Notes under the pieces: generated by a model | Databases searched by the model: none | What the model saw: only the letters and a program-made list of their open reading frames with translations | Told to the model about the DNA's origin: nothing | Assembly: GCF_015694525.1 (NCBI RefSeq) | Contig: NZ_JADQDM010000017.1 | Coordinates: 1-64,000 of the forward strand | Origin: Hymenobacter ruricola | Lineage (GTDB): Bacteria > Bacteroidota > Bacteroidia > Cytophagales > Hymenobacteraceae | Direction: 5' to 3' | DNA length: 64,000 nt | Part shown: piece after piece, positions 4,884 to 18,278 of the stretch | Numbering within the stretch: position 1 is the stretch's first letter | Layout: each line of letters begins with the position of its first letter | Position numbers and translations under genes: made by a program

Positions 4884-5703
4884 TTACTCCACCAGCAGGC
4901 GCAGGGTGCTGGGGCCGCTGCGCACCACGTACACGCCGGCCGCCAATCCGGCCGGCAGCGCCTGCTGGGCCGTGCCCGCCGCATCAGCCGGGGCAGCGGC
5001 TACCAGGCGGCCCAGCGCATCGAAGAATTCCACCGGCGCCCCGGCCGAAATGCCCCCCATCGTCACCGTTCCGTGGGCCGGATTGGGGTAGAGCGTGAGC
5101 AGCGGTTTGCCACTCAGCGTCACGGCTTGGACGGGCGAGTAAATGGCTGTGCCGTCGAGGTCTATTTGCCGCAGGCGGTAGTAGATGGGCGCAGGGCTGG
5201 TGCTGGTTTTGGGGGCCTGGCTGTCCAGGTAAGCGTAGTCCGTGGGACTGGTTTTAGAGCCTTGGCCGGCTACTGAGCCAATTCTATCAAACTGCTGCCC
5301 GTTCAGGCTGCGCTCGACTTCAAAGCAGGCGCTGTTCTTTTCGCTGGCGGTGCGCCAGTTCAGTTGCACGTTCGGCGCTTTGGCTGTGGCGGTGAAGGCC
5401 GTCAGCTCCACGGGCAGCGGGGCCGTGTTCTCGTTCAGGCGCACGGCTACGGTGGTGGCGCCGCTGGTGGAAGCCAGGTCGAGGTCACCGTCGTTGTCCA
5501 CGTCGGCCAGCGTCACAAAATTCGCTCCCCCGGCTACCGTGCCATTACTGCTGGGCGTAGTGAAAATGCCGCTGCCGTTGTTGAGCCGTATCGAAATCCC
5601 GGTGCTGCCGCCGGCCACCAGGTCCAGGTCACCGTCGGCGTCCACGTCGCCCAGGGCCAGACTGATGGGGCTGGCGGCTACTGCCACTTCTCCATTGGCC
5701 GCG
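4884..5703 (-). pseudogene. T9SS-sorted FG-GAP/VCBS repeat protein, 5' end missing
   Basis: The frame encodes two FG-GAP/VCBS-type repeats (LALGDVDADGDLDLVAGG and VTLADVDNDGDLDLASTS, both with Ca-binding Asp patterns). These are followed by a beta-sandwich region (LPVELTAFTATAKAPNVQLNW..., common before T9SS tails) and a type A T9SS sorting domain (LTLYPNPAHGTVTM ... GVYVVRSGPSTLRLLVE). Homology stops at about 5703. Upstream, the frame runs antisense through an HsdR fragment, so the start, signal peptide and more repeats have been lost. The 3' end is intact. It was probably a secreted or surface protein. Confidence 0.75.
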
Positions 5704-5711
5704 GTGGCCGG

Positions 5712-6385
5712 TGGCGCTACTACAAGCTCGCCACCAAGGCCCACGTGGAGGACGACAAGGAGTATGAGAAAGGCCCCGTGGTGCGCCTGCTCAGCCAGTT
5801 CGTGGACCTGACGGACCACGCCAGCGAGCTGAAAAGCCGGCTCATGCTGGCCCACTTCCATCAGCACACCCAGAAGGCCCTCAAGGGCCGGGCGCGGGGC
5901 ACGGTCGTCACCCGCTCGCGGCTGCACGCCGTGCGCTATAAGCGAAAATTTGATGAGTTGATGGCCGAGCTGAATCTACCTTACCGCGCCCTGGTGGCCT
6001 TTTCGGGCACCGTGACTGCCCCCGACACCGGCAAAGACTACACCGAAGTCGGCCTGAACGGCCTCGACGGCAAAGCCAGCATCGAGGCCGCCCTGAAGCT
6101 ACCGCGCTACCGCCTGCTCATCGCCGCCAACAAGTTCCAGACCGGCTTCGACGAGCCTCTGCTCCACACCATGTACGTCGACAAAAAGCTCGGCGGCATC
6201 AGCATGGTGCAGATGCTGAGCCACCTGAACCGCACCACCCGCCACAAGCACGACACGCTGGTGCTGGACTTCGTGAACGGCCCGGAAGACGTGCAAGCCG
6301 ATTTCCAGGGCTACTACGAAAACAACTTCCTGCCCGAGGACCAGCAAACCGACCCCAACGCCCTCTACGACGGGCGGGTCGCGGT
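5712..6385 (+). pseudogene. hsdR: type I restriction enzyme HsdR fragment (helicase domain 2)
   Basis: In frame from about 5712 the translation reads RYYKLATKAHVEDD..., then ALVAFSGTVTAPDTGKDYTE, LIAANKFQTGFDEPLLHTMY, VDKKLGGISMVQMLSHLNR and HDTLVLDFVNGPEDVQADF. This is the characteristic second RecA-like lobe of HsdR, the motor subunit of type I restriction. The N-terminal nuclease and first helicase lobe are missing. After DPNALYD (about 6370) similarity ends and the frame runs into unrelated sequence with a stop at 6456-6458. No hsdM or hsdS is present. It is a dead remnant broken at both ends. Confidence 0.85.
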
Positions 6386-6488
6386 GCAGGCCCTGTCCGT
6401 GGTAATTAGGATTTTGCGCCTAGCCATTCGTACTTTTCACGCCCTTCGCCACAACTAGGTATTCGTTGATTTAATTTCTACCCAATTA

Positions 6489-9080
6489 ATGCGAGACGAC
6501 TTGTACGCTGCACGCCTCCGTGCGCAGCTCGTGGCCCCCATGCGCCAAAGCTGGGACCTGGAGGCAGTGCCGCTGACCGATTTTGAGTGGCTGAACGCGG
6601 GGCTGCTGGTGCGGCACCGGCAGTTGCCCGCCACCGAGCGGCCACAGCCCTTGTTTGTGGCCCTGCCGGCACACAGCACCGACTTGGGTACGGGCTTGCG
6701 GGCCGCCGCGGCCGCCGCTTGGCTGGCGGGGCACGAGCCGCCGATTGGGCTGGCAACCCCTCTCCTACGGCCCGGCGACCACGTGTTTCACGACGAAACC
6801 ATCTGGAAAGTGGAAGGGGCCTCCGATGCGGCCGGCAAAGTGCCCCTGCGGCGGGTGAGCGACAACCGGGCGCGCAGCGTGGCCGCTACGGCCTGCCGCA
6901 AGCTGGCCGCGCCCTTCGAGTTCGCCGGCTTGCTGGATGACAATCGGGCCGGCTTCCGCTACGTGCATTACCAGGCCTGGCTGGAAAAGCTGCTGGCCGG
7001 CACCCGCCAGGCCCAGCGCCTGTTTCGGATGGCGGACAAGGACAGCATTCCGCGGCCACACGGCGGGCTCACCATTGTGGTAGCTCCGGCCGATGCGTTC
7101 CGCCATTTTGAAGAAACCGTGCTAGAGAAAGTGCCCGGCCTGCCCCTGTGCTGGACCCGCCGCCTGGGCGGCGGCCTCAGCAAGCAGCTGTGGGGCCTGC
7201 CCTTCGCGGCTTCCATCACCGTGGTGGCCTCTGTAGCGGAGGCGCTGGAGCTGCGCACCCAACCTCGGTTTTCGACCATCAAAAACTGGCACCTGAGCGT
7301 GGTGGGGAAGGCCGCCGTGGGCAGTTCGCTGAACGTGGCGCAGTTGGTGCAAGCCTATGCAGGCCAGCAGTGGGCCAGCCTCACCTTTTGGGGTCCCGAC
7401 CTGGGAGTGGGCGAAACGCCGGGCTGCGTGGTCTGGCCGTGGTCGCGCACGGAGGCCCTGGGCCCCCACCACCGCCCCGCCCCCGTGCACCTAACCATTG
7501 TGCCCCTGCCCGCGCCGCCTGCACCCGGTTTGGCCGTGCGGGTGGCAGCGGTGCGGCAGGTGCTCGACGGGCTGGGGCTCGTGAGCGAAGCGGCCCCTCT
7601 GGCCGTGCGCCTGCCCCTGGTGTGGCACCTGCTGCACCGCTGCCTGCGCTACGCGCTGCCGCCAGCCGGCACCAGCAGCCACGCCCGCGCTTACCTGGCC
7701 GAGCTGGCCCGGAAGGTAGCCGAATGCCTGGAAAGCGAAGAGCTGGAAGATGCTTTTGACGATGCCAACCGCTGGCGCGACCTAAAGCCTGCGCGCACGG
7801 CTCTGCAAGCGGCTTTTGCCGACCTGCTGGACTACTTTCAGGACCACAGCCCCAAATACGACACCCTGCGAGCGTTGGCCGCTGACGCCTTGGACGAAGG
7901 CCGGCCCGTGGTAGTGGTGGCCGACCGCGAAACGCTGGTGGCCACGCAGGCCGTGTGGCGCGGCGTGCGCGGCGTGGAAGTGCTGCCGCTGCTAAACGGG
8001 GCCGACAACGTGCGTCAGCGCCTGCGCAAAGGCTCTTTCTCTTCCGACGCCGTACTGCTAGTCCCCTTCCTCTTCAACCGCGACCAGTTGGCCGAGCTGC
8101 AAACGGCCCCCTGCCCCGTGCGGCTGGTGTTGCTGGCCGGCGTGGAGGACGGATTGTATGCCCGCACGCAGGCCAGCTTGCACCAGCAGGAGCAGGCCCA
8201 GCTGCGCGCCGGTGGCCGGGCCACCGTGCTGGGCCAGACCTATGAGCAGTTGGTGCCGGCCACTGAAGTAGCGCATCCTGAAAATGCCGCGCCTGACGGG
8301 GCCAACGGGAAAGCCGCTGTCACGGCGGGCCAGCTCGACTATTTTGATGAGCTATATGCCGTGGGCGAAGCCCGCTACGCCAGTGAGCGGCAGCGCGGCC
8401 GGGCCAGCGGCCAGCTCTTCGCGATGGCCTTCGCCGATGGCTACCGCACCGAACTGGACGGCCATACGCGGGTGCTTCGGCGCGAACCCGCCGAAACTGA
8501 AAACGGCCAGGCCAACCTGGTTCCCTGCCAGGTAGATGAGCTGCAGGACGGCGACCGCATTATTTTCTACGAAAACGACCAGCCCAAGCTCATTGCCCAG
8601 ATTTTGCGCCAGCACGACCGCAATGGCCTCGTTGGGCGCATCGACCAAGCTTCGGCGGTGTGGCAGGAAGCCTTGCAGCAGCTAGCGGCGCACTATCCTG
8701 GCACCTCAGCGCTGTACACTGCCCTGCAGGTGCATGGCGGCCTGGATGTGGGACTGCAAACGCTGCGCCATTACCTGGAAGGCAAACGGCGCTTCCCCGG
8801 CGACCCCACCACACTGCCCGCCCTGCTGAAGCTGGCCCGCCACGTGGAGCTATTGGACTGCCGCCTGCTACAGCCCGGTGAGGCGGAAGAGGTGCGTCAC
8901 TGCCGCACCAAGTTTCATCAGCTAAGCATTGCCTTGGGCAAAGGTTTGAGCGAGGAGGTGCTGCGCTACCGGCTGACCGGGGCCAAGGGCAGCCTGCTAA
9001 GCAAGCTGGAACCCGATACGCTAGAGCTGGTGCTGCTGAGCGCTGTGGAGCGCACCGTGTACCGCATCAGCCCGCGCTAA
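6489..9080 (+). CDS. DrmE-like first protein of a DISARM-like operon
   Basis: An 863-residue soluble protein, first gene of the operon, 42 bases before drmA. No Walker A motif is visible. Residues about 480-570 (RPVVVVADRETLVATQAVW, then SDAVLLVPFLFNRDQL) resemble a helicase C-lobe-like Rossmann fold. Residues about 680-860 form a C-terminal region with LQDGDRIIFYENDQPKLIA, and LDVGLQTLRHYLEGKRRFPG, which looks like a helix-turn-helix or winged segment. DISARM class 2 loci encode a large protein of unknown function, DrmE; the size, gene position and C-terminal pattern make this the likely counterpart. That assignment is inference from context and faint similarity, and the protein could be a new component. 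Confidence 0.55.
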   Translation: MRDDLYAARLRAQLVAPMRQSWDLEAVPLTDFEWLNAGLLVRHRQLPATERPQPLFVALPAHSTDLGTGLRAAAAAAWLAGHEPPIGLATPLLRPGDHVFHDETIWKVEGASDAAGKVPLRRVSDNRARSVAATACRKLAAPFEFAGLLDDNRAGFRYVHYQAWLEKLLAGTRQAQRLFRMADKDSIPRPHGGLTIVVAPADAFRHFEETVLEKVPGLPLCWTRRLGGGLSKQLWGLPFAASITVVASVAEALELRTQPRFSTIKNWHLSVVGKAAVGSSLNVAQLVQAYAGQQWASLTFWGPDLGVGETPGCVVWPWSRTEALGPHHRPAPVHLTIVPLPAPPAPGLAVRVAAVRQVLDGLGLVSEAAPLAVRLPLVWHLLHRCLRYALPPAGTSSHARAYLAELARKVAECLESEELEDAFDDANRWRDLKPARTALQAAFADLLDYFQDHSPKYDTLRALAADALDEGRPVVVVADRETLVATQAVWRGVRGVEVLPLLNGADNVRQRLRKGSFSSDAVLLVPFLFNRDQLAELQTAPCPVRLVLLAGVEDGLYARTQASLHQQEQAQLRAGGRATVLGQTYEQLVPATEVAHPENAAPDGANGKAAVTAGQLDYFDELYAVGEARYASERQRGRASGQLFAMAFADGYRTELDGHTRVLRREPAETENGQANLVPCQVDELQDGDRIIFYENDQPKLIAQILRQHDRNGLVGRIDQASAVWQEALQQLAAHYPGTSALYTALQVHGGLDVGLQTLRHYLEGKRRFPGDPTTLPALLKLARHVELLDCRLLQPGEAEEVRHCRTKFHQLSIALGKGLSEEVLRYRLTGAKGSLLSKLEPDTLELVLLSAVERTVYRISPR

Positions 9081-9122
9081 AATACCCGCCAACATCATTC
9101 ATCCCTTTTTCTCTGCAGAGCC

Positions 9123-12100
9123 ATGCCGACTGCCGCCGCACCGCGCGACTTCTTCACTCACCGCCTCGAAAGCTCGTTGTTGGGACCGGGCAGTGATACC
9201 TATACCGGCGACCCGGCAACCGAAGTGCTGGATGATTTCCCCTTGCAACGCTATTACACTGGCATTCTCTTCCCGGACCGAGCCGCGGAGCAAGACCCTG
9301 GCACCGACGAGGAAGAATACGCCCGGGCCAATCTGGCCGATGAGCCGGACGAAGCCGATGACAACGAGCCCACCGGTGCCGAAATACACCCCGAGGCCGG
9401 CGTAGCCGCCGATGGCATACCAGCCCCGGTGCCCGCCGATGCCCCCGAGGGCCGGGATGAATATGCCGCCGCCAACCACTACTTCCCGAGCAATTTGGGC
9501 CTGACCTGTTGCGTGCCTGCCGCAGCCGGGCAGCTGCGCGTAACGGTGCGCGGCGCCAGCTACCGGCCCTGGCAGGCGGGCCGCGACCACCTGGCGGTGC
9601 GGCTGGCCCCCAATGAATGGGCGCGCCTGCAAGCGGCCCTTTCCGGAACGCTGCGGCAGAAGCTGGCTTACGACGAGCCGAGCACAACGCTGGCGCTGGT
9701 GGCCGCCCCCAAGGGCAACAGCCGCCGCAACCGCAGCGAGGATTTCGCCGAAGTCGACCGCCTGGGGGCCAAAGCCAGTGAGCTGCGCAACAGCCCCGGC
9801 GTAGCCGCCCTCGACAAGCTGCTGCGCCCCGCCAACCGCCTCTGGCAGCGGCAGCCCTTTGAATGGACGTTTCTGGCCGACCTCAACCAATCGGAGACCA
9901 AATACACCGCCGGGGCCGACGGCCCGGAAGGGCTGGTGTGCTGGGTAAAAACCTACACCGTCGCCGCCGAGCCCCAGCGCGGAGAACCAGCCCGACGCTA
10001 CATTAAACTACTGGTGCATAATGCAATAGAGCAGCATCCGGCGCGCGAGTTCAGCAATGCCAACGAGAAGCTGAACGAAAAAAGCCGCTTCCAGGTAACC
10101 GTAGCGGCGAGTCTACCCGATGGCACCGCACTGCTACCCTACAAGCCCGACTTCAACCGCTTCACGGCCGGCGACCAAGAAGCGGCCATTCTGAATTATC
10201 AATACCGCGACTGCCCTTCCTACGGCATTGGCCACGGGGCGGCGGCGGCATGGGAAGGTAGCCCGGCCAACCCGCCAACGGAGTTACGCTCCACTTTCCT
10301 GCCGACGGTGGACGTGCCCGGCGTGAGCACGGTGCCGCGGCCCGCCGCTACCGCCGCACAAAACCAAGCCATGGTTGAAGTGCTGGACCTGCGCAACCTT
10401 TCGCATTGGGGCAAGGCAGCCTATCCGGCCCAGCGCCTGCAGGAACTCCTGACGTTGTTCCTCGACGAGTACGCCGCCTGGACGCGCCGCCAGGCCGCCG
10501 AAGCCCGCCAGGAGCCCGTGAACGAAGACTGCTACGAGCCGCTGCTGACCAACCAAGCCGAAGCCCTGCACCGGATGCGCCACGCGGTGACGCTGCTGGG
10601 AAGCGACCCGCGCGTGCTCGACGCCTTCCGCCTGGCCAATACGGCCATGCTCTTGCAGATGATAGTATCGGATGACCTGGCTTATGCGGGCGAGCCCAAA
10701 CCCTACGACGATTTTGTGGCGCACCACGCCGCCACGAACTATACCGGGCTGGAAGGGTTTCGCAACCACCCGGGGCGGCGGGCGCGGGGCGGCCATATTC
10801 CGTTCAGCTATCGGCCTTTTCAATTGGCTTTCCTGCTCATCAGCCTCAATTCGGTGACGGTGAATGAGGCGCGGGCGGCGGGAACCGCTACCCAAACGAC
10901 GGCCGACCGGTTGCCCGACCGGGAGCTGGTGGACCTCATCTGGTTTCCGACCGGCGGCGGCAAAACCGAAGCCTACTTAGCCGTAACCGCGCTGGCGATT
11001 ATCTGGCGGCGCTGGCACGGAGGAGAGCGCGGGCAAAAGGGCGTGGCCGTGCTCATGCGCTACACCCTGCGGCTGCTCACGACGCAACAATCAGAGCGGG
11101 CCAGCCGGCTGATGTGCGCGCTGGAATTTCTGCGCACGACGTGGCGGGACGCTACCGGCCGGAAGGTACTCGGCCGCGAGCCGCTCACGCTGGGCTTGTG
11201 GGTGGGCCAGGCCACCACGCCCAACACCCGCGCCGAAGCCGGCCAGGCCTACGAGGACCTGCTGGAAGAAATCCGGCAGACCAATTACCAGCTAAGCCGG
11301 TCCAAAGCGAAGCCCAAAGCGGGGGACTACACCCGCAAACCCAGCTTTCAGAAAAATGTGTTTCAACTGGCCTCGTGTCCGTGGTGCGGCTGCGAAACCA
11401 TCAGCATTCAGCGCGGCCAGTACCACACCGGCTTCGACGCCACCGGCCAACTCACCTGCCTGAACGAGCGCTGCCACTTCGGGCAGCGCGATGCCGCGGG
11501 GCAGGCCACGCACCCAGTGCCAGTGAGCGTGGTGGACGAGGAGCTGTATAAGCACCCGCCGACCCTGCTTTTTGCCACGGTTGATAAGTTTGCCATGCTG
11601 CCGCATAAGGAGAAAGCGGGGCTGTTTTTCCGGCAGGCCGGCACGGCGCCTCCCGGGCTCATCATTCAGGACGAACTGCACCTGTTGAGCGGTCCGCTGG
11701 GGTCGCTCACCGGGTTGTTTGAGCGCGTGGTAAAGGAATTGTGCACCGACCCGCTGGGCCAGCGCCCGCCCAAGATTATTGCTTCGACGGCGACCACCCG
11801 CAACACGGCGGCCCAGGTGCGGGCGTTGTACGACCGGCCGGTGGCCATTTTTCCGCCGGCTGGCATTCGCTACGACGATTCGTTTTTCGCCTACAACACC
11901 GCCGAAAGCCAGCGCCGCCACGTGGGCGTGATGGCCACCGGTAAAACCAACCTCGACATGCAGTTGCAGTTGGTTTCGCTGCTACTGCTGGCCCGCACCG
12001 AGGCCTGGCGCGCCCTGCGGCCCACCTACGCCACCGAGGCCGACGCCCTTGCCCGCCTGGACCGCTACTGGACCCTGGTGCTGTACTACAACAGCCTGCG

Positions 12101-13013
12101 CGACGTGGGCAAAATGTATAACAAAGTCAGTTCGGAGGTTTTTGGCCTGCTGCAGGCCGCGCATCAGCACTGGAACCTGGACGGCCCCGGCCAGCAATGG
12201 CCCTACTACGGCCTGATGAGCCGGACCCGCGAGCTGACCAGCCGCGTGGAAAGCAACAAAATCAAGGACGCGCTGCACGAGCTGGGCGAGCCCCTGAAGC
12301 TGAACGCGGCCGACAGTGAGCAGCGGCGGGTGGTGAGCGGTGTGGATTTGGTACTGGCCAGCAATATGTTGTCGGTGGGCATCGATATTGGCCGCCTGAA
12401 CCTGATGGTGCTGTGCGGACAGCCGCGCAACAGCGCCGAATACATTCAGGCCAGCTCGCGCGTGGCCCGCAACGACCAGGGGCTGGTGTTCAGCCTGCTA
12501 GACGCCAACCGCGCGCGCGAAAAATCCATTTTTGAGCAGTACACCGGCTTCAACCAGACCTACTACAAGCACGTCGAGCCACTCAGCCTGACCCCGTTCA
12601 CGCCCCAAACGCTGGACCGCATGCTCAACAGCCTGCTGGTGACCTGGGTGCGGCACTACAAGGGCCAGCCCGCCGCGGCGTTTGAGCTGGAAATGGCCAC
12701 CGCCCTGGGCGAGCTGCTGGGCGAGCAACTCACCGCCGATTCCGCGCTGGCGGCCAACCTGCAAGCCCGCCTGGCCAACCTGGCCGAAGATTGGCTGGCC
12801 AAAAAGCAGGCCGGCCGGAGCGTGGACAAACCCCTGCACTACAAGAACAAGCGGCACAATACCCCGCTGCTCAGCAAAGAGCCCGGCGAGCCCCACCACC
12901 CCAACTACTGGAACCTGCCCACCTCCATGCGGGAAGTGGACACGGAAACGACGCTGGGCTTCCGGCCCGAAGCCGAGCCCGTGGCCGCCGCGCCCGCCCT
13001 GCCAACCATCTAG
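9123..13013 (+). CDS. drmA: DISARM-type helicase DrmA
   Basis: A 1296-residue superfamily 2 helicase. Walker A is WFPTGGGKTEAYL with Lys614; the Walker B/DExH motif is IIQDELHLLSGPLG near 850; motif III-like is ASTATTRNTAAQ; motifs V/VI are SNMLSVGIDIG and QASSRVARND (about 1110). A zinc-knuckle-like insert, CPWCGCETIS ... CLNERC, lies at about 750-780 between the helicase motifs. The long N-terminal part (about 1-590) has no recognised enzyme motif. DrmA is one of the three core DISARM proteins and acts with DrmB on incoming phage DNA. The gene sits 42 bases after the DrmE-like gene and 22 bases before drmB. A Druantia DruE helicase is the alternative, but there DUF1998 is fused rather than separate. 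Confidence 0.85.
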   Translation: MPTAAAPRDFFTHRLESSLLGPGSDTYTGDPATEVLDDFPLQRYYTGILFPDRAAEQDPGTDEEEYARANLADEPDEADDNEPTGAEIHPEAGVAADGIPAPVPADAPEGRDEYAAANHYFPSNLGLTCCVPAAAGQLRVTVRGASYRPWQAGRDHLAVRLAPNEWARLQAALSGTLRQKLAYDEPSTTLALVAAPKGNSRRNRSEDFAEVDRLGAKASELRNSPGVAALDKLLRPANRLWQRQPFEWTFLADLNQSETKYTAGADGPEGLVCWVKTYTVAAEPQRGEPARRYIKLLVHNAIEQHPAREFSNANEKLNEKSRFQVTVAASLPDGTALLPYKPDFNRFTAGDQEAAILNYQYRDCPSYGIGHGAAAAWEGSPANPPTELRSTFLPTVDVPGVSTVPRPAATAAQNQAMVEVLDLRNLSHWGKAAYPAQRLQELLTLFLDEYAAWTRRQAAEARQEPVNEDCYEPLLTNQAEALHRMRHAVTLLGSDPRVLDAFRLANTAMLLQMIVSDDLAYAGEPKPYDDFVAHHAATNYTGLEGFRNHPGRRARGGHIPFSYRPFQLAFLLISLNSVTVNEARAAGTATQTTADRLPDRELVDLIWFPTGGGKTEAYLAVTALAIIWRRWHGGERGQKGVAVLMRYTLRLLTTQQSERASRLMCALEFLRTTWRDATGRKVLGREPLTLGLWVGQATTPNTRAEAGQAYEDLLEEIRQTNYQLSRSKAKPKAGDYTRKPSFQKNVFQLASCPWCGCETISIQRGQYHTGFDATGQLTCLNERCHFGQRDAAGQATHPVPVSVVDEELYKHPPTLLFATVDKFAMLPHKEKAGLFFRQAGTAPPGLIIQDELHLLSGPLGSLTGLFERVVKELCTDPLGQRPPKIIASTATTRNTAAQVRALYDRPVAIFPPAGIRYDDSFFAYNTAESQRRHVGVMATGKTNLDMQLQLVSLLLLARTEAWRALRPTYATEADALARLDRYWTLVLYYNSLRDVGKMYNKVSSEVFGLLQAAHQHWNLDGPGQQWPYYGLMSRTRELTSRVESNKIKDALHELGEPLKLNAADSEQRRVVSGVDLVLASNMLSVGIDIGRLNLMVLCGQPRNSAEYIQASSRVARNDQGLVFSLLDANRAREKSIFEQYTGFNQTYYKHVEPLSLTPFTPQTLDRMLNSLLVTWVRHYKGQPAAAFELEMATALGELLGEQLTADSALAANLQARLANLAEDWLAKKQAGRSVDKPLHYKNKRHNTPLLSKEPGEPHHPNYWNLPTSMREVDTETTLGFRPEAEPVAAAPALPTI

Positions 13014-13035
13014 CGACTTTCTTTTTTGCCAACCG

Positions 13036-15096
13036 ATGCCTGCCACTGATTCCTTACAAACCCGCAAGCTGTGCAGCGCCTATGGCGGCGTGGGCTCGCT
13101 CATTGAGTCGCGCCTGGGAGCCCTGCGCATCCTGCCCGCCAACGAATGGCCTTACCTGCGCGGCCAGAACCCCCGCGCCTACCGCGAGGAAAACCGCCTG
13201 AACGATATGCGGCTCCTGGCCCGCCTGCGCTGCCTGTTCCCGGAACTGCGCCGCCTGGCCCGTATGCCCTCCAACCCACCGCTGGCATTTGCGGGCGCCC
13301 CCAGCCGGCCCCGGGTGGCCGTGGATTTTTTCCCGAAGTGGATGTACTGCCCCAGCTGCGCCCGCTTCGACCACCACGCCAACTGGCGCCGGCAATGGTA
13401 CCTGACGGCCACCCGCAAGACGGCTTTTGAAGTAAGCCGCTTTGAGGACGCGCCGCGCTGCGACTACTGTTTCCACAACGACAAGCTGAGCGGCCCGGCC
13501 CGCTGGCAAACGCTGGAGCAGGTGCGCTTCGTGATGACTTCGCCGGCCGGCAGCATTGCCGATGTGCCGTGGCCACACTGGGCGCTGCGGCATCGGCAGG
13601 AAAAAGAAGCGACGGCTCCTGAAATGATGGCCGATGATGCAAACGCGCCCGATGAAGCCGGGGAAGCCAGCACCACCACGCTGGCCATGCGGCGGGACGT
13701 GCCCAAAGGCACGGAGCTGTACTACCGCACATCGGGCCGCCTCAACGACCTCAAAGGCATCACCATTGAGGCGCGGCGACGGCTGGCTGATGGCGGCACC
13801 GAGCGCCTGGGCAGCGCCACGCTGGCGGGCTTGTTTGGCCTGCGGGTGCCGGAAACCGATATGGAGGAGTACGGCGTGGCGCGCCCCCGCCGTGGCGTGC
13901 CAATGAAACCGGTGCTGCGTGCCAGCAACAGCGTGTACTACCCACACATCGTGCAAAGCCTCTACCTGCCAGGCGAGCAGCCGGAGGTAGTGGGGGCCGA
14001 AGCGGATGGTCCTTCGACCATCCGCTTCGGCCTTACACCGGAAATGGCGCAAGTCCTTAAGGAAAACCACGAGGACGAGATGCCGGTGCACCGCAACCTG
14101 AACCGGTTGCTGACCAAACACGGCATTGAGCTGAGCCCGGAGCAATTTGAGCAACTCCGCGCCGCCGATTTTATCGTTCCGGAGCCCATTTCCGCTATGC
14201 CGCCCGTGCCCGAAGCCAGTCAGCCGGGGGAGGAAGACTATCGCCGGGCCGAATACCGCTACCTCACCACGGAAGCCACCCCAGCGGATTCCAAGGAGCT
14301 CCTGCTGCGCCCGCTCGATTTGGCGGTCCAGCTGCCCGGTCTGGGGCCGGCCTGGCAGCTGGACCGCCTGAAAATGACGGCTGTGCAAACCTCTTATACC
14401 CGGCAGCAGCCGCTGGACCGGGATGCCATTCTGACGCAGGATGAGAAAGGCAGCCCGCTGAGCATCCGCCGGCGTTTCACCTTCAAGTACGGTCTCAAAA
14501 CCCACACCCTGCTCGGCGTGGAAAGCTACGGAGAAGGCCTGTTCTTTACCCTGGATGCCGAACGGCTGCAGCAGTGGGAAAACAAGCCGGCCGTGTTGAA
14601 AAGGCTCGACCAATTACTGGCCAACCAGAAAGCCTTGTCGGCGGGCTCGCCGGGCGCAGCGCGCAAAGCCACGGCCCGCTTCGTGCTGCTGCACACGCTC
14701 AGCCACCTGCTGGTGCGTGAGCTGGAGTTTCAGTGCGGCTATCCAGCCACCTCCTTGCAGGAACGGCTGTACGTAGGACCGGGGATGCAGGGCCTGCTCA
14801 TCTATACCATTGCCGGGTCGGAGGGCTCGTATGGCGGGCTGGTATCGCTGGGCCGCACCGGCAAGCTGCCCGGCTTGCTAAAATCGGCCCTGCACCGGGC
14901 CACCGACTGCGCGGCCGACCCCATTTGCTGGCACACCGATGCACAGGGCCAGGGCGTGGGCGGGCTCAACATGGCCGCTTGCGCGGCCTGCGCGCTGCTG
15001 CCCGAAACCTCGTGCGAGGAGTTCAATTCGCTGCTGGACCGCCGGCTGGTGGTTGACAAAGACTTCGGCTATTTCCGCGAGTTGCTACACCAATAG
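13036..15096 (+). CDS. drmB: DISARM-type DUF1998 protein DrmB
   Basis: A 686-residue protein; ATG at 13036 follows drmA by 22 bases and gives the conserved-looking start MPATDSLQTRKLCSAYGGVGSLI. Two CxxC pairs (FFPKWMYCPSCARFDHH and RCDYCFHN, residues about 97-150) suggest a zinc site. The C-terminal third is a DUF1998 domain: FVLLHTLSHLLVRELEFQCG near 546, SYGGLVSLGRTGKL, and the terminal cysteine cluster MAACAACALLPETSCEEF (about 638-655). DrmB partners the DrmA helicase in DISARM and is needed for DNA binding by the complex; this is family knowledge, not seen here. No catalytic motif is evident. Confidence 0.85.
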   Translation: MPATDSLQTRKLCSAYGGVGSLIESRLGALRILPANEWPYLRGQNPRAYREENRLNDMRLLARLRCLFPELRRLARMPSNPPLAFAGAPSRPRVAVDFFPKWMYCPSCARFDHHANWRRQWYLTATRKTAFEVSRFEDAPRCDYCFHNDKLSGPARWQTLEQVRFVMTSPAGSIADVPWPHWALRHRQEKEATAPEMMADDANAPDEAGEASTTTLAMRRDVPKGTELYYRTSGRLNDLKGITIEARRRLADGGTERLGSATLAGLFGLRVPETDMEEYGVARPRRGVPMKPVLRASNSVYYPHIVQSLYLPGEQPEVVGAEADGPSTIRFGLTPEMAQVLKENHEDEMPVHRNLNRLLTKHGIELSPEQFEQLRAADFIVPEPISAMPPVPEASQPGEEDYRRAEYRYLTTEATPADSKELLLRPLDLAVQLPGLGPAWQLDRLKMTAVQTSYTRQQPLDRDAILTQDEKGSPLSIRRRFTFKYGLKTHTLLGVESYGEGLFFTLDAERLQQWENKPAVLKRLDQLLANQKALSAGSPGAARKATARFVLLHTLSHLLVRELEFQCGYPATSLQERLYVGPGMQGLLIYTIAGSEGSYGGLVSLGRTGKLPGLLKSALHRATDCAADPICWHTDAQGQGVGGLNMAACAACALLPETSCEEFNSLLDRRLVVDKDFGYFRELLHQ

Positions 15097-15115
15097 CTTC
15101 ACCTATCGTACGCGC

Positions 15116-17953
15116 ATGCCCCTCGTCGAAACCCCGCTCCTGCTCGGCCGCGATGCCGCTGGCCGCCTTGCTTACGGAGCGGGGCCGGGTGTGGGCATGG
15201 CCTTCATTGAAGGATATTTTCCGCAGGCGCAACGGGTGCTACGGATAGCGACGGCGTACTTCACGCTACGGGGCTACCAGCTGGGCCGGGAGCACATTGC
15301 GCAGCCTGCCCAGTTGCGCATTTTAGTGGGCCACTCCGAGGAGAAACACGCTTACGAGGCCGTGGTGGACGAGATACTTGCCGAGCTCGGACAGTGCCAG
15401 ACCGACCTGATGCGTACCGTAGCCGACTTGCTGCAGCGCATCCGCACCGGGCAGTTTTTTATTCGGGAAGCCCGCTCCATGCGCGTGCCCTTTCACTGCA
15501 AGTTTTACCTGATTGACGAGCAGGTGCTGTGGCACGGCTCCTGCAACTACACCTACAAAGGGCTGAAAATAGCAGCCGAGCAGGCCAGCGCCAGCCATGA
15601 GTCAGTTGAAATACAGGCTTGGATTACCTGGTACGACGAGGTGGCGGCGCAAGCGCACGATTTGCTGCGCGAGCTGGAAGAGCGGCTGAACAAGTGGTAC
15701 CTCCTGGCTACTCCGTTTGAAGCTTACCTCAAGATGCTGCAGTTGCTCGACCATTTGCCCGAGTTGCCGCAACGGCCTGGCGTTTATCCACCCACTTTTT
15801 ACCAGCGTGGGGTTATTGCTCGGGCACTGCGCCAAGAGCGGCAATACGGTGGAGCCTTGATAGTGGCGGCCACTGGCTTGGGCAAAACCATTATCGGAGC
15901 CGAAATAGCCGAGCGTTTGCAACTGGCTGGGCACATCAAACGAACCGTATTGATTGCCCCGGCGGGGGTAAAGCGCGAGTGGCATCAGCAGCTGGCGGGC
16001 CGCGATGTGAATTATAGCTTCTACACCTCGCAGGTCATTTTTCGTGACACCTCCGACCAGCCTCACCACCGCATATATGAGCTGGAGCAGGAAATTCAGC
16101 GGGCCGACCAACACACGCTGCTTCTGATTGACGAAGCGCACTTCTACCGCAACCAGTTGCTGGTAGATGAGTCGGAGCGCCGGGCCATCCGCAGCCGGGT
16201 GTACGAGCGCATCCGGCCGCTGCTGGCCAATGGGGCCCGCGTGGTGCTGCTCACGGCCACCGTATACGGCACCAGCCTGAAAAACCTCGACAGCCTGCTG
16301 CACTTGCTCCCGCCGCAGCACGATACTGCCACCGGCACCAGTCAGCCCTGGAAGGCTACTTCGGCCGAAAAGTTCTTGCACCTGCCGGTGGTAACGGTGC
16401 TGGGCCTGCCGCACGTGCTGCGCCTGGCCAATGAGCGCGGCGACGTGGATGAGCACGGCCGGACGTTCATCCAATTTGCCCACGAGCGGCGCTACCTGCC
16501 TCCCTTCCTACGGCTGCGCACCGAAACCTACCGCTTGCTGCTACAGCCCGAAATGGAGCAGGCCGCCGACGCCCGCTGCTTTGACCAGCAGTACAAAGTC
16601 ATGCAGTCGTTTTTTGTCGATGAGGTGGCCCAAACCCAAGTGGGCCTGACCGACGCCGTGTACAACAGTACGCTGGGCAGTTGGCTGAGCTCACCGGCCG
16701 CGGTAGCGGTGTCGTTGGACAAAAACCTGCATTCGCTGGGAGCCGATGGCCAGCGTCCCGCCGGGAAGCGCCCGCGCCGAGGAGCAGCCAAATATGAGTC
16801 TCCTTTATTTCTACCAGCCGATGAGCGTGGCAAGTACCTTGAGCCACTACTGACGGTTTTTCGAGGCAGCGGAATAGCCCGGGATGCCAAATACCAACTG
16901 CTGGCTGGCATCGTGGCGCGCCACTGCGTGGCCACGCGTGGCAAGGTGCTGATTTTCGTCAACCGCTTGTCTACAGCAATTTACTTAAAACAGGCTTTGC
17001 GCCAAGAGTTTGCTGATGTGCGAGTGGGCTGCACGGTGGTAAGCAGCCGGGGCGTGGTGCGGCTAGCTTCGGCCGACTTGCGTAGCGCCGAGCTGCGCGG
17101 GTTTTCGCCCAAGTCGCACTACCCATCTACCGGCCCTGATAAGTACGAAGTGCTGATTTGCACCGATGCCGACGGCGTGGGGGTCAATCTGCAGGACTGT
17201 GCCACCGTCGTCAACTACGACCCACCCGGTGGGGCCGATGTGCTGTTTCAGCGCGTGGGGCGGATACTGCGCATGACGACGGCACCTGACCGTGACGTGC
17301 ACGTGTACACCTTGCTCCCCACTATCCTTGAAGAAACAACCAACGAAAGCCGGCTAGCCCAGAGCATTCGCCGGTTATTTGAACGAATGACGCAGCGCCA
17401 CGAGAAATCACGGGGTATCATGGGGTCGGCGGCCTTTACAAGCAGCCCACGAGTGGATATTGCCCTGAACGGCGACATCGATGCCCTCCACTTTGTGAGG
17501 CAAGATGAGCTGCTGACCGAGGTAGGCGGCTCAGGCGCAGCATCTTTTCTGACCCACAGCGCCACCCTAGAAAAACACCGGGCTCAAGCCAGCCAGCTCC
17601 CCGCATATTTATTGAGCACAAAGCTGTATGCCCGGGCCCAGCACCGAGTTGTCGTACTGATTCGGCAGGGCCCCTCTTACCGGTTGATTTGTTATAACTA
17701 TCGGCAGCAACAGTTAGAGAGTTTTCAGGATTGGGAGCTGCTTGATTGGATAAGATGCGACAGCGCCGCACTGAAAGCTCCCGTGCCGGCTGAACAGGTA
17801 GAACATGCCGCGAACGAGGCAGTACAACGATGGGCCACCGAACAGCAATGCAGCATAGAGGACATCACCAAGCTTAGCGCAGTGTATCTGCTACCTGCTA
17901 ATGCCAGAGCTAACCAAGTACGGCAGCTTATCAGCAGATTGGCTAAGTCTTAG
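15116..17953 (+). CDS. PLD-nuclease/DEAH-helicase fusion protein
   Basis: A 945-residue protein; ATG at 15116 lies 19 bases after the drmB stop. Residues 1-195 are a phospholipase D-like nuclease with a single HKD motif (H127-x-K129-x4-D134, in FHCKFYLIDEQVLWHGSCNY), so it probably works as a dimer. From about 225 follows an SF2 helicase: AATGLGKTII with Lys257, LLIDEAHFYR near 338, LLTATVYGTS, ICTDADGVGVNLQDC and FQRVGRILRM near 712. In known DISARM loci a separate small PLD protein (DrmC) and, in class 1, a separate SNF2-like helicase (DrmD) occur; here both activities are in one chain. The base composition is visibly more AT-rich than in drmA/drmB, which may mean a different origin. Confidence 0.85.
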   Translation: MPLVETPLLLGRDAAGRLAYGAGPGVGMAFIEGYFPQAQRVLRIATAYFTLRGYQLGREHIAQPAQLRILVGHSEEKHAYEAVVDEILAELGQCQTDLMRTVADLLQRIRTGQFFIREARSMRVPFHCKFYLIDEQVLWHGSCNYTYKGLKIAAEQASASHESVEIQAWITWYDEVAAQAHDLLRELEERLNKWYLLATPFEAYLKMLQLLDHLPELPQRPGVYPPTFYQRGVIARALRQERQYGGALIVAATGLGKTIIGAEIAERLQLAGHIKRTVLIAPAGVKREWHQQLAGRDVNYSFYTSQVIFRDTSDQPHHRIYELEQEIQRADQHTLLLIDEAHFYRNQLLVDESERRAIRSRVYERIRPLLANGARVVLLTATVYGTSLKNLDSLLHLLPPQHDTATGTSQPWKATSAEKFLHLPVVTVLGLPHVLRLANERGDVDEHGRTFIQFAHERRYLPPFLRLRTETYRLLLQPEMEQAADARCFDQQYKVMQSFFVDEVAQTQVGLTDAVYNSTLGSWLSSPAAVAVSLDKNLHSLGADGQRPAGKRPRRGAAKYESPLFLPADERGKYLEPLLTVFRGSGIARDAKYQLLAGIVARHCVATRGKVLIFVNRLSTAIYLKQALRQEFADVRVGCTVVSSRGVVRLASADLRSAELRGFSPKSHYPSTGPDKYEVLICTDADGVGVNLQDCATVVNYDPPGGADVLFQRVGRILRMTTAPDRDVHVYTLLPTILEETTNESRLAQSIRRLFERMTQRHEKSRGIMGSAAFTSSPRVDIALNGDIDALHFVRQDELLTEVGGSGAASFLTHSATLEKHRAQASQLPAYLLSTKLYARAQHRVVVLIRQGPSYRLICYNYRQQQLESFQDWELLDWIRCDSAALKAPVPAEQVEHAANEAVQRWATEQQCSIEDITKLSAVYLLPANARANQVRQLISRLAKS

Positions 17954-18198: not shown

Positions 18199-18205
18199 CT
18201 GAATG

Positions 18206-18278
18206 AGCGAGAAACGAGGTTCGAACTCGCGACCCTCAGCTTGGGAAGCTGATGCTCTACCAACTGAGCTACTCTCGC
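18206..18278 (-). tRNA. tRNA-Gly (anticodon CCC)
   Basis: The minus strand folds as a cloverleaf: acceptor GCGAGAG, D arm AGCTCAGTTGGTAGAGC, anticodon stem TCAGC/GCTGA enclosing TTCCCAA, and T arm with GGTTCGAAC-type sequence (GAGTTCGAACCTC). The loop places CCC at positions 34-36, reading GGG glycine codons. No CCA is encoded, as is usual in this phylum. Its 3' end faces the defence operon. Confidence 0.93.

Follow-up and report, generated by a model that had tools for sequence, protein, structure and literature searches.

The question raised by this locus is whether a DISARM-type operon can do without a DNA methylase of its own, and whether the nuclease-helicase gene at its 3′ end belongs to the system. 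DISARM loci of class 2 consist of drmE, drmA, drmB, drmC and drmMII, the last of which encodes a cytosine-5 methylase, and those of class 1 of drmD, drmMI, drmA, drmB and drmC, DrmMI being an N6-adenine methylase. The window analyzed here comprises the initial 64 kb of a contig, 107 kb long, from the Hymenobacter ruricola genome (G000; 5.96 Mb), and the contig begins at window position 1, 6.5 kb upstream of drmE. Four ORFs, all open and on the + strand, make up the operon, and re-reading them gave exactly the intergenic gaps reported in the preliminary description of this DNA, i.e. 42 (gene 1/drmA), 22 (drmA/drmB) and 19 bases (drmB/gene 4). The features of the region are as follows:

5714–6403, + strand: relic of hsdR (type I restriction subunit), the 5′ neighbour, outside the system (PADLOC REase_I, homology)
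6489–9080, + strand: gene 1, divergent DrmE-like protein, 863 aa (NCBIfam NF038316, weak Pfam DrmE_C match, position)
9123–13013, + strand: drmA, SF2 (YprA-family) helicase, 1296 aa (PADLOC DrmA, NCBIfam DrmAS, PDB 7s9v)
9270–9482, + strand: acidic low-complexity segment of DrmA, residues approx. 50–120, counterpart of the Serratia autoinhibitory trigger loop
12936–12938, + strand: codon of DrmA Val1272 (Serratia Val1296), placed by the aligned SMREV motif
13036–15096, + strand: drmB, MZB/DUF1998 protein, 686 aa (NCBIfam DrmB_fam, Pfam MZB, PDB 7s9v)
15076–15127, no strand: junction at which the mosaic passes from the drmEAB cassette to gene 4 (DNA homology breakpoint, GC change)
15116–17953, + strand: gene 4, PLD nuclease with SNF2/RapA-like ATPase, 945 aa (Pfam PLDc_2, ResIII, Helicase_C)
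15191–15604, + strand: PLD (HKD) nuclease domain of gene 4, residues approx. 26–163 (Pfam PLDc_2, 36–163)
15728–17458, + strand: SNF2-type ATPase domain of gene 4, residues approx. 205–781 (predicted-structure match)
18205–18278, − strand: tRNA-Gly(CCC), its 3′ end facing the operon, 251 bases past it (ARAGORN)

The identification of gene 2 as DrmA and of gene 3 as DrmB, already proposed from the sequence, was confirmed. Gene 2 matched the PADLOC DrmA model with 546 bits (E 3e-164; DpdJ 15 bits, DruE 18 bits) and the solved Serratia DrmA (PDB 7s9v) with an E value of 1e-120, and its best NCBIfam match was the short type, DrmAS, at 757 bits, which does not reach the equivalog cut-off of 950. 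Gene 3, described earlier as a DUF1998 protein, scored 270 bits with NCBIfam DrmB_fam (cut-off 240), also matched Pfam MZB, and was aligned with the solved DrmB (PDB 7s9v) at E 3e-36. Profiles and the DrmA tree presented below did not place these helicases outside the DrmA/DrmB clade; a placement outside it had been named in the preliminary description as evidence against its reading.

The assignment of gene 1 stood in part: its position before drmA agrees with DrmE, but its profile scores lie below the curated cut-offs (27 bits with NCBIfam DrmE_fam, NF038316, cut-off 80; 15 bits with Pfam DrmE_C, cut-off 27, E 0.023). We therefore call it DrmE-like solely because of a weak C-terminal match and its position, its relatives always being found immediately 5′ of drmA in the clade. 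Several DrmE-like proteins of this clade show no match whatever to the DrmE model, and gene 1 may therefore represent, as judged from the profiles, a separate family distantly related to DrmE. A sequence search matched no solved structure to the DrmE-like family, a single-sequence structure prediction (mean pLDDT 40) was of no use, and a scan of viral contigs detected no relatives of DrmE.

The values of dN/dS were 0.07–0.21 for drmE, drmA and drmB (compared with G085 and G088), of which the drmE-like gene 1 gave 0.12–0.15 (G085), and 0.11 for gene 4 (G012); those of the more distant pairs are rough values, with dS above 1. The drm genes are under strong purifying selection, which shows them to be real genes.

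The absence of a methyltransferase gene from the window, noted previously, was borne out and extends over the whole contig, since neither the window nor the remainder of the 107 kb yielded a DNA-methylase motif. Methylases were also sought across the genome, family by family, and here the answer was divided. No cytosine-5 methylase (PF00145, DrmMII type) is encoded in the whole genome (10 of 14 control genomes were positive), and HsdM is missing from G000 as well. There are, on the other hand, five N6/N4 enzymes: three are type III Mod proteins, one is a type II methylase, and the fifth is a type ISP/IIG R-M enzyme in a single chain. The family PF02384 is represented by one protein, a type ISP enzyme, and PF01555 by four. 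All of these methylase matches lie on contigs other than that of the operon, and none of the N6/N4 enzymes matched DrmMI in a scan with an E limit of 1e-8. The type II N6/N4 methylase adjoins a gene for a HerA-like ATPase, which is an unusual pair (L121:373–3485, contig C28 of the same genome).

DrmA is present in 15 of the 204 genomes of the family Hymenobacteraceae, and in seven of the 15 (G000, G085, G088, G186, G018, G201 and G107) a drmE-like gene lies directly before drmA. In a tree of 21 DrmA proteins, that of the window grouped with nine others (support 100/99); drmE is present at all ten loci, and a nearby cytosine methylase was found at one of them. No cytosine-5 methylase lies near any of the seven Hymenobacteraceae drmEAB loci, compared with six of the eight other DrmA loci that have one within approx. 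20 kb; the one-sided P of this split is 0.006, but it is only indicative, given that the loci depend on one another and that little flanking sequence is available for G107 and G186.

In seven further genomes that bear drmE (G018, G085, G186, G201, G274, G464 and G562), no match to a cytosine-5 methylase was detected anywhere, while G088 encodes one, approx. 1 Mb from the locus, and G107 two, both on other contigs. Outside the family, drmE-drmA-drmB was seen without a methylase in the stretches read of G274, G464 and a Haliscomenobacter plasmid; in G260, drmE and a cytosine-5 methylase gene lie four genes apart, one of the genes that separate them encoding Argonaute, and a Lactiplantibacillus plasmid carries the order methylase-drmE-drmA-drmB without drmC, its DrmA being placed elsewhere in the tree. 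The tree and the neighbour counts support the earlier claim of a DISARM-type cassette without a methylase and extend it to the clade: the absence is a property of this clade, not a quirk of the window.

Defence remnants had been suspected beside the operon, and upstream of it we found a fragment of hsdR (5714–6403) whose DNA is 84% identical to an internal stretch of the complete hsdR beside drmE in Hymenobacter sp. DG25B (G085), the nearest relative locus. On the DG25B plasmid and in G018, intact hsdM, hsdS and hsdR genes lie directly before drmE on the same strand; the hsdR has diverged, the G018 protein sharing approx. 43% identity with the relic of the window. No type I R-M methylase gene adjoins drmEAB in the stretches read of G088, G201, G274 and Haliscomenobacter. 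A methylase in the operon of close relatives, which the preliminary description would have counted against its reading, was thus encountered as an upstream type I system in two of them, and the others, including the second-closest, were without it. The type I system is taken as a frequent neighbour, not a subunit. Its complete form in two relatives, together with the relic in the window, suggests that the core may have lived with HsdM, and the G085 and G018 cassettes may share use of this protein.

The relic itself has been joined with the end of a gene that runs antisense and whose translation contains VCBS-like repeats and a type IX secretion sorting tail (4884–6458), and the long ORFs on both strands of this segment are chimeras across the joint.

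The 3′ part of the operon has a different history. DNA homology to DG25B (86%) covers 6467–15075 and breaks off as drmB ends; that to the G012 locus sets in at 15128, when twelve bases of gene 4 have passed, and the GC content falls at the boundary from 0.64–0.69 to 0.57–0.61. These breaks, and the occurrence of gene 4 alone elsewhere, indicate that the operon is a mosaic and that gene 4 is no DrmC-DrmD fusion.

All three domains of gene 4 (PLDc_2, ResIII and Helicase_C) scored above the Pfam cut-offs, and HxK...D...GSxN is invariant in its PLD domain in two alignments (A1 and A3). The predicted model of the protein (mean pLDDT 71; C-terminal part of low confidence) supports the SNF2 motor only: RapA was the first Foldseek match, and residues 205–781 were aligned with the INO80, ISWI and CHD1 motors at VIA-align Z scores of 19–24, which supports the view that this predicted segment is an SNF2/RapA-like motor. 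The score with DrmD was 72 bits (cut-off 610), and no DrmC model was listed for genes 1–4 at E ≤1 (for gene 4, among the best 25 of 28 PADLOC matches); two members of the gene 4 family match DrmC_I weakly.

Within the family Hymenobacteraceae, orthologs of gene 4 were found in G012 (67%), G068 (63%, broken), G202 (43%) and G026 (41%), and neither drmE nor DrmA was found in these four genomes. An alignment-based scan of 84,980 species genomes (the gene 4 sequence alone as a query gave no matches) revealed the family in Nostoc, Anaerolineales, Runella and Spirosoma; one more member is encoded in G450, a genome of the same order. At other loci the gene is solitary or has type I, type IIG or Wadjet genes nearby, more distant forms occur on cyanobacterial plasmids, and a scan of viral contigs detected no relatives of gene 4. 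Gene 4 thus belongs to a PLD-SNF2 (RapA-like) family in its own right, which stands by itself in other Hymenobacter too. The DrmC-DrmD fusion, i.e. the two activities united in one chain as originally described, is ruled out by the existence of this independent family, alone in several phyla, and by sister drmEAB loci that are without gene 4.

Two of the ortholog loci deserve mention. That of G068 is broken by a stop codon and is followed by a JetA (Wadjet) gene (L111:4075–6927). In G202 the ortholog adjoins, in the opposite orientation, the genes of a type I R-M system in which two GmrSD-type genes lie between hsdS and hsdR (L112:485–10631).

Other genes occupy the place behind drmB in the relatives. 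In G088 it is brxL, approx. 50 bases on (L011:5140–6552), in G201 a gene for an McrB-type AAA protein (AAA_5), 13 bases on and followed by mcrC, in G085 a gene for a 180-aa protein without a Pfam match, and in G018 the TmtA gene, approx. 0.7 kb on; the Haliscomenobacter plasmid and G274 have nothing behind drmB on that strand. The tight joining of partners from known defence families behind one drmEAB core suggests an exchange of effectors. No BREX gene was noticed near brxL in the stretches read of G088, and drmE-drmA-drmB-mcrB-mcrC of G201 form one tight run, possibly a DISARM/type IV hybrid operon (L040:14520–18163).

The operon was correctly said to end at a tRNA gene: tRNA-Gly(CCC) lies 251 bases beyond it on the opposite strand. 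Its 3′ end points towards the operon, as at integration sites. The 64-kb window contains no second copy of this 3′ end, and as the contig starts at window position 1, the other end of any integration into tRNA-Gly may be missing from it.

Key residues and segments known from Serratia DrmA recur in DrmA of the window. The Walker A motif and the DExH box are intact, and Lys803 and Arg1294 of Serratia are kept as Lys822 and Arg1270. Each of the 21 DrmA proteins compared has an acidic segment that is flanked in the same way; in the window protein it is aligned, as a weak stretch, with Serratia residues 155–261 (trigger loop 176–232). The position of Val1272 is occupied by Val or Ile in each of the 20 proteins (of 21) that reach this point. 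Serratia DrmAB binds unmethylated 5′-overhang ssDNA with no sequence preference, is kept off by the trigger loop and is inhibited by 5mC, and its Val1296, which contacts the base, has been proposed as the methylation sensor; DrmC was dispensable (PMC9142583). With the proposed sensor residue kept in the window protein, methylation sensing may still matter. All these features are alike at DrmA loci with and without a methylase, so that their conservation is no proof of methyl sensing and also fits recognition of DNA structure.

By analogy with the Serratia proteins, we infer an anti-phage function, an activation signal and a possible joint action of gene 4 with the core. DrmAB would wait in an autoinhibited state behind the acidic loop until released, presumably by exposed single-stranded or 5′-overhang DNA of an entering or replicating phage, and would then clamp on, translocate and block the use of the phage DNA. 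The DrmE-like protein would be a putative lineage-specific cofactor, and the gene behind drmB would encode an exchangeable, self-sufficient effector, in the present case an ATP-driven DNA translocase whose PLD nuclease may cut foreign DNA, in an architecture like that of SauUSI. Self would be spared through the rarity of the activating structure in host DNA, and not through methylation by the system.

We consider it moderately probable that the locus consists of a class 2-like drmE-drmA-drmB core, belonging to a clade without a dedicated methylase or DrmC, and a separately acquired PLD-SNF2 gene behind drmB. An unlikely alternative in our judgement, a single obligate system made up of all four genes, with the PLD-SNF2 protein substituted for DrmC (and DrmD) as a nuclease-translocase recruited by DrmAB, could draw on the 19-base gap, with the same strand and no terminator-like site in it, on the presence of a PLD gene where drmC usually lies, on the weak DrmC_I matches of the two family members and on the proposal that DrmAB borrows PLD nucleases (PMC9142583). 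It conflicts with the neighbourhoods of both partners: a gene 4 ortholog lies beside the cassette in none of the six other Hymenobacteraceae drmEAB genomes, including G085 and G088, whose cassettes most resemble that of the window, and drmA or drmB at none of 12 other gene 4 loci.

The missing methylase could also be accounted for outside the operon. Marking of the host in trans by a methylase that belongs to a different R-M system (type ISP, type III or type II N6/N4) agrees with the set of N6/N4 enzymes in the genome and with the frequent location of DISARM loci near R-M systems (PMC10270631), but appears quite improbable: the type ISP enzyme is a one-piece R-M protein, the other methylases adjoin helicase or ATPase genes resembling partners of their own, and a methylase of the C5 type, whose modification is the one tested to inhibit DrmAB, is not among them, nor is there an HsdM. 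A methylase acting in trans could only be an N6/N4 enzyme that serves a different R-M system. Still less credible to us is a stranded remnant, i.e. a cassette which used the upstream type I HsdM as a marker and, once deprived of it, fell silent or began to decay; the intact hsdMSR beside drmE in G085 and G018 and the mere hsdR relic of the window are what it would predict, yet all frames are open, the motifs are intact, dN/dS is 0.07–0.21, and G088, G201, G274 and Haliscomenobacter keep drmEAB without an adjoining type I R-M methylase (stretches read). Beyond the core with a separately acquired effector, we entertain as a tentative extension, somewhat short of probable, that this branch of DISARM abandoned self-marking by methylation and discriminates by DNA structure alone, with PLD-SNF2, BrxL and McrBC swapped as effector cartridges.

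The locus resembles class 2 DISARM in having a drmE-like gene, drmA and drmB in one operon, in the short DrmAS type of its DrmA and in the grouping of this protein with other drmE-bearing loci. It differs by the lack of drmMII and drmC, by DrmE scores below the curated cut-offs and by the differing genes behind drmB in different relatives. With DrmA and DrmB present, DrmE uncertain, and DrmC and DrmMII absent, we do not assign it to class 2 DISARM but regard it as a DISARM-like variant, which probably works like DISARM. The DrmA/DrmB core and the SNF2/RapA-like motor of gene 4, similar to that of DrmD, are shared with class 1, but no DrmMI is encoded in the operon or contig, DrmC is missing, and gene 4 falls below the DrmD cut-off.

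Gene 4 can be compared with SauUSI, a type IV restriction enzyme of approx. 950 aa with an N-terminal PLD nuclease, an ATPase motor and a C-terminal extension, which needs no partner methylase (PMC7913695). Both combine PLD and an SF2 motor in one chain (Pfam PLDc_2, ResIII and Helicase_C in gene 4), but the motor of gene 4 is SNF2/RapA-like and no type IV model was among the best 25 of its 28 PADLOC matches; a C-terminal SRA domain, by which modified cytosine is bound in SauUSI-type restriction, gave no Pfam match in gene 4, whose C-terminal model part is of low confidence. The same combination of PLD and SNF2 is found in PADLOC PLD_Helicase and C3a139 (HKD+Snf2) and in the anti-phage protein of NCBIfam NF042964, from which gene 4, scoring only 31–57 bits, differs as a distinct family.

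Many DISARM-like classes are uncharacterised (PMC12458937). A "DISARM-like" cassette linked with McrBC has been mentioned without detail (PMC11090510, PMC12458937), and G201 resembles it in having genes for a YprA-type helicase and a DUF1998 protein in an operon with McrBC. ARMADA, a later name for related loci, combines a PglX-type methylase with a single-chain YprA helicase (PMC12458937), whereas here there is no methylase and DrmA and DrmB are separate proteins. In the literature searched, which did not cover the original DISARM paper, we found no description of a methylase-less drmEAB branch. Such a branch, if real, is missed by current definitions that require DrmC and DrmMII, and an exchange of BrxL, McrBC and PLD-SNF2 behind one core, if true, shows how defence systems recombine.

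Two ideas exist of how DISARM spares its host, methyl sensing and the recognition of DNA structure. The system restricts phages without its methylation sites, a finding that contrasts with the inhibition of the solved DrmAB by methylated DNA. A natural DrmA/DrmB set that is under strong selection in a genome without a cytosine-5 methylase lets these two ideas be separated directly.

The locus of G260, the one with a cytosine-5 methylase gene four genes from drmE, has an order of its own, with the Argonaute gene directly before drmE, then two more genes and the methylase gene, and a gene for a PD-(D/E)xK nuclease at the other side of the locus (L013:1012–19974).
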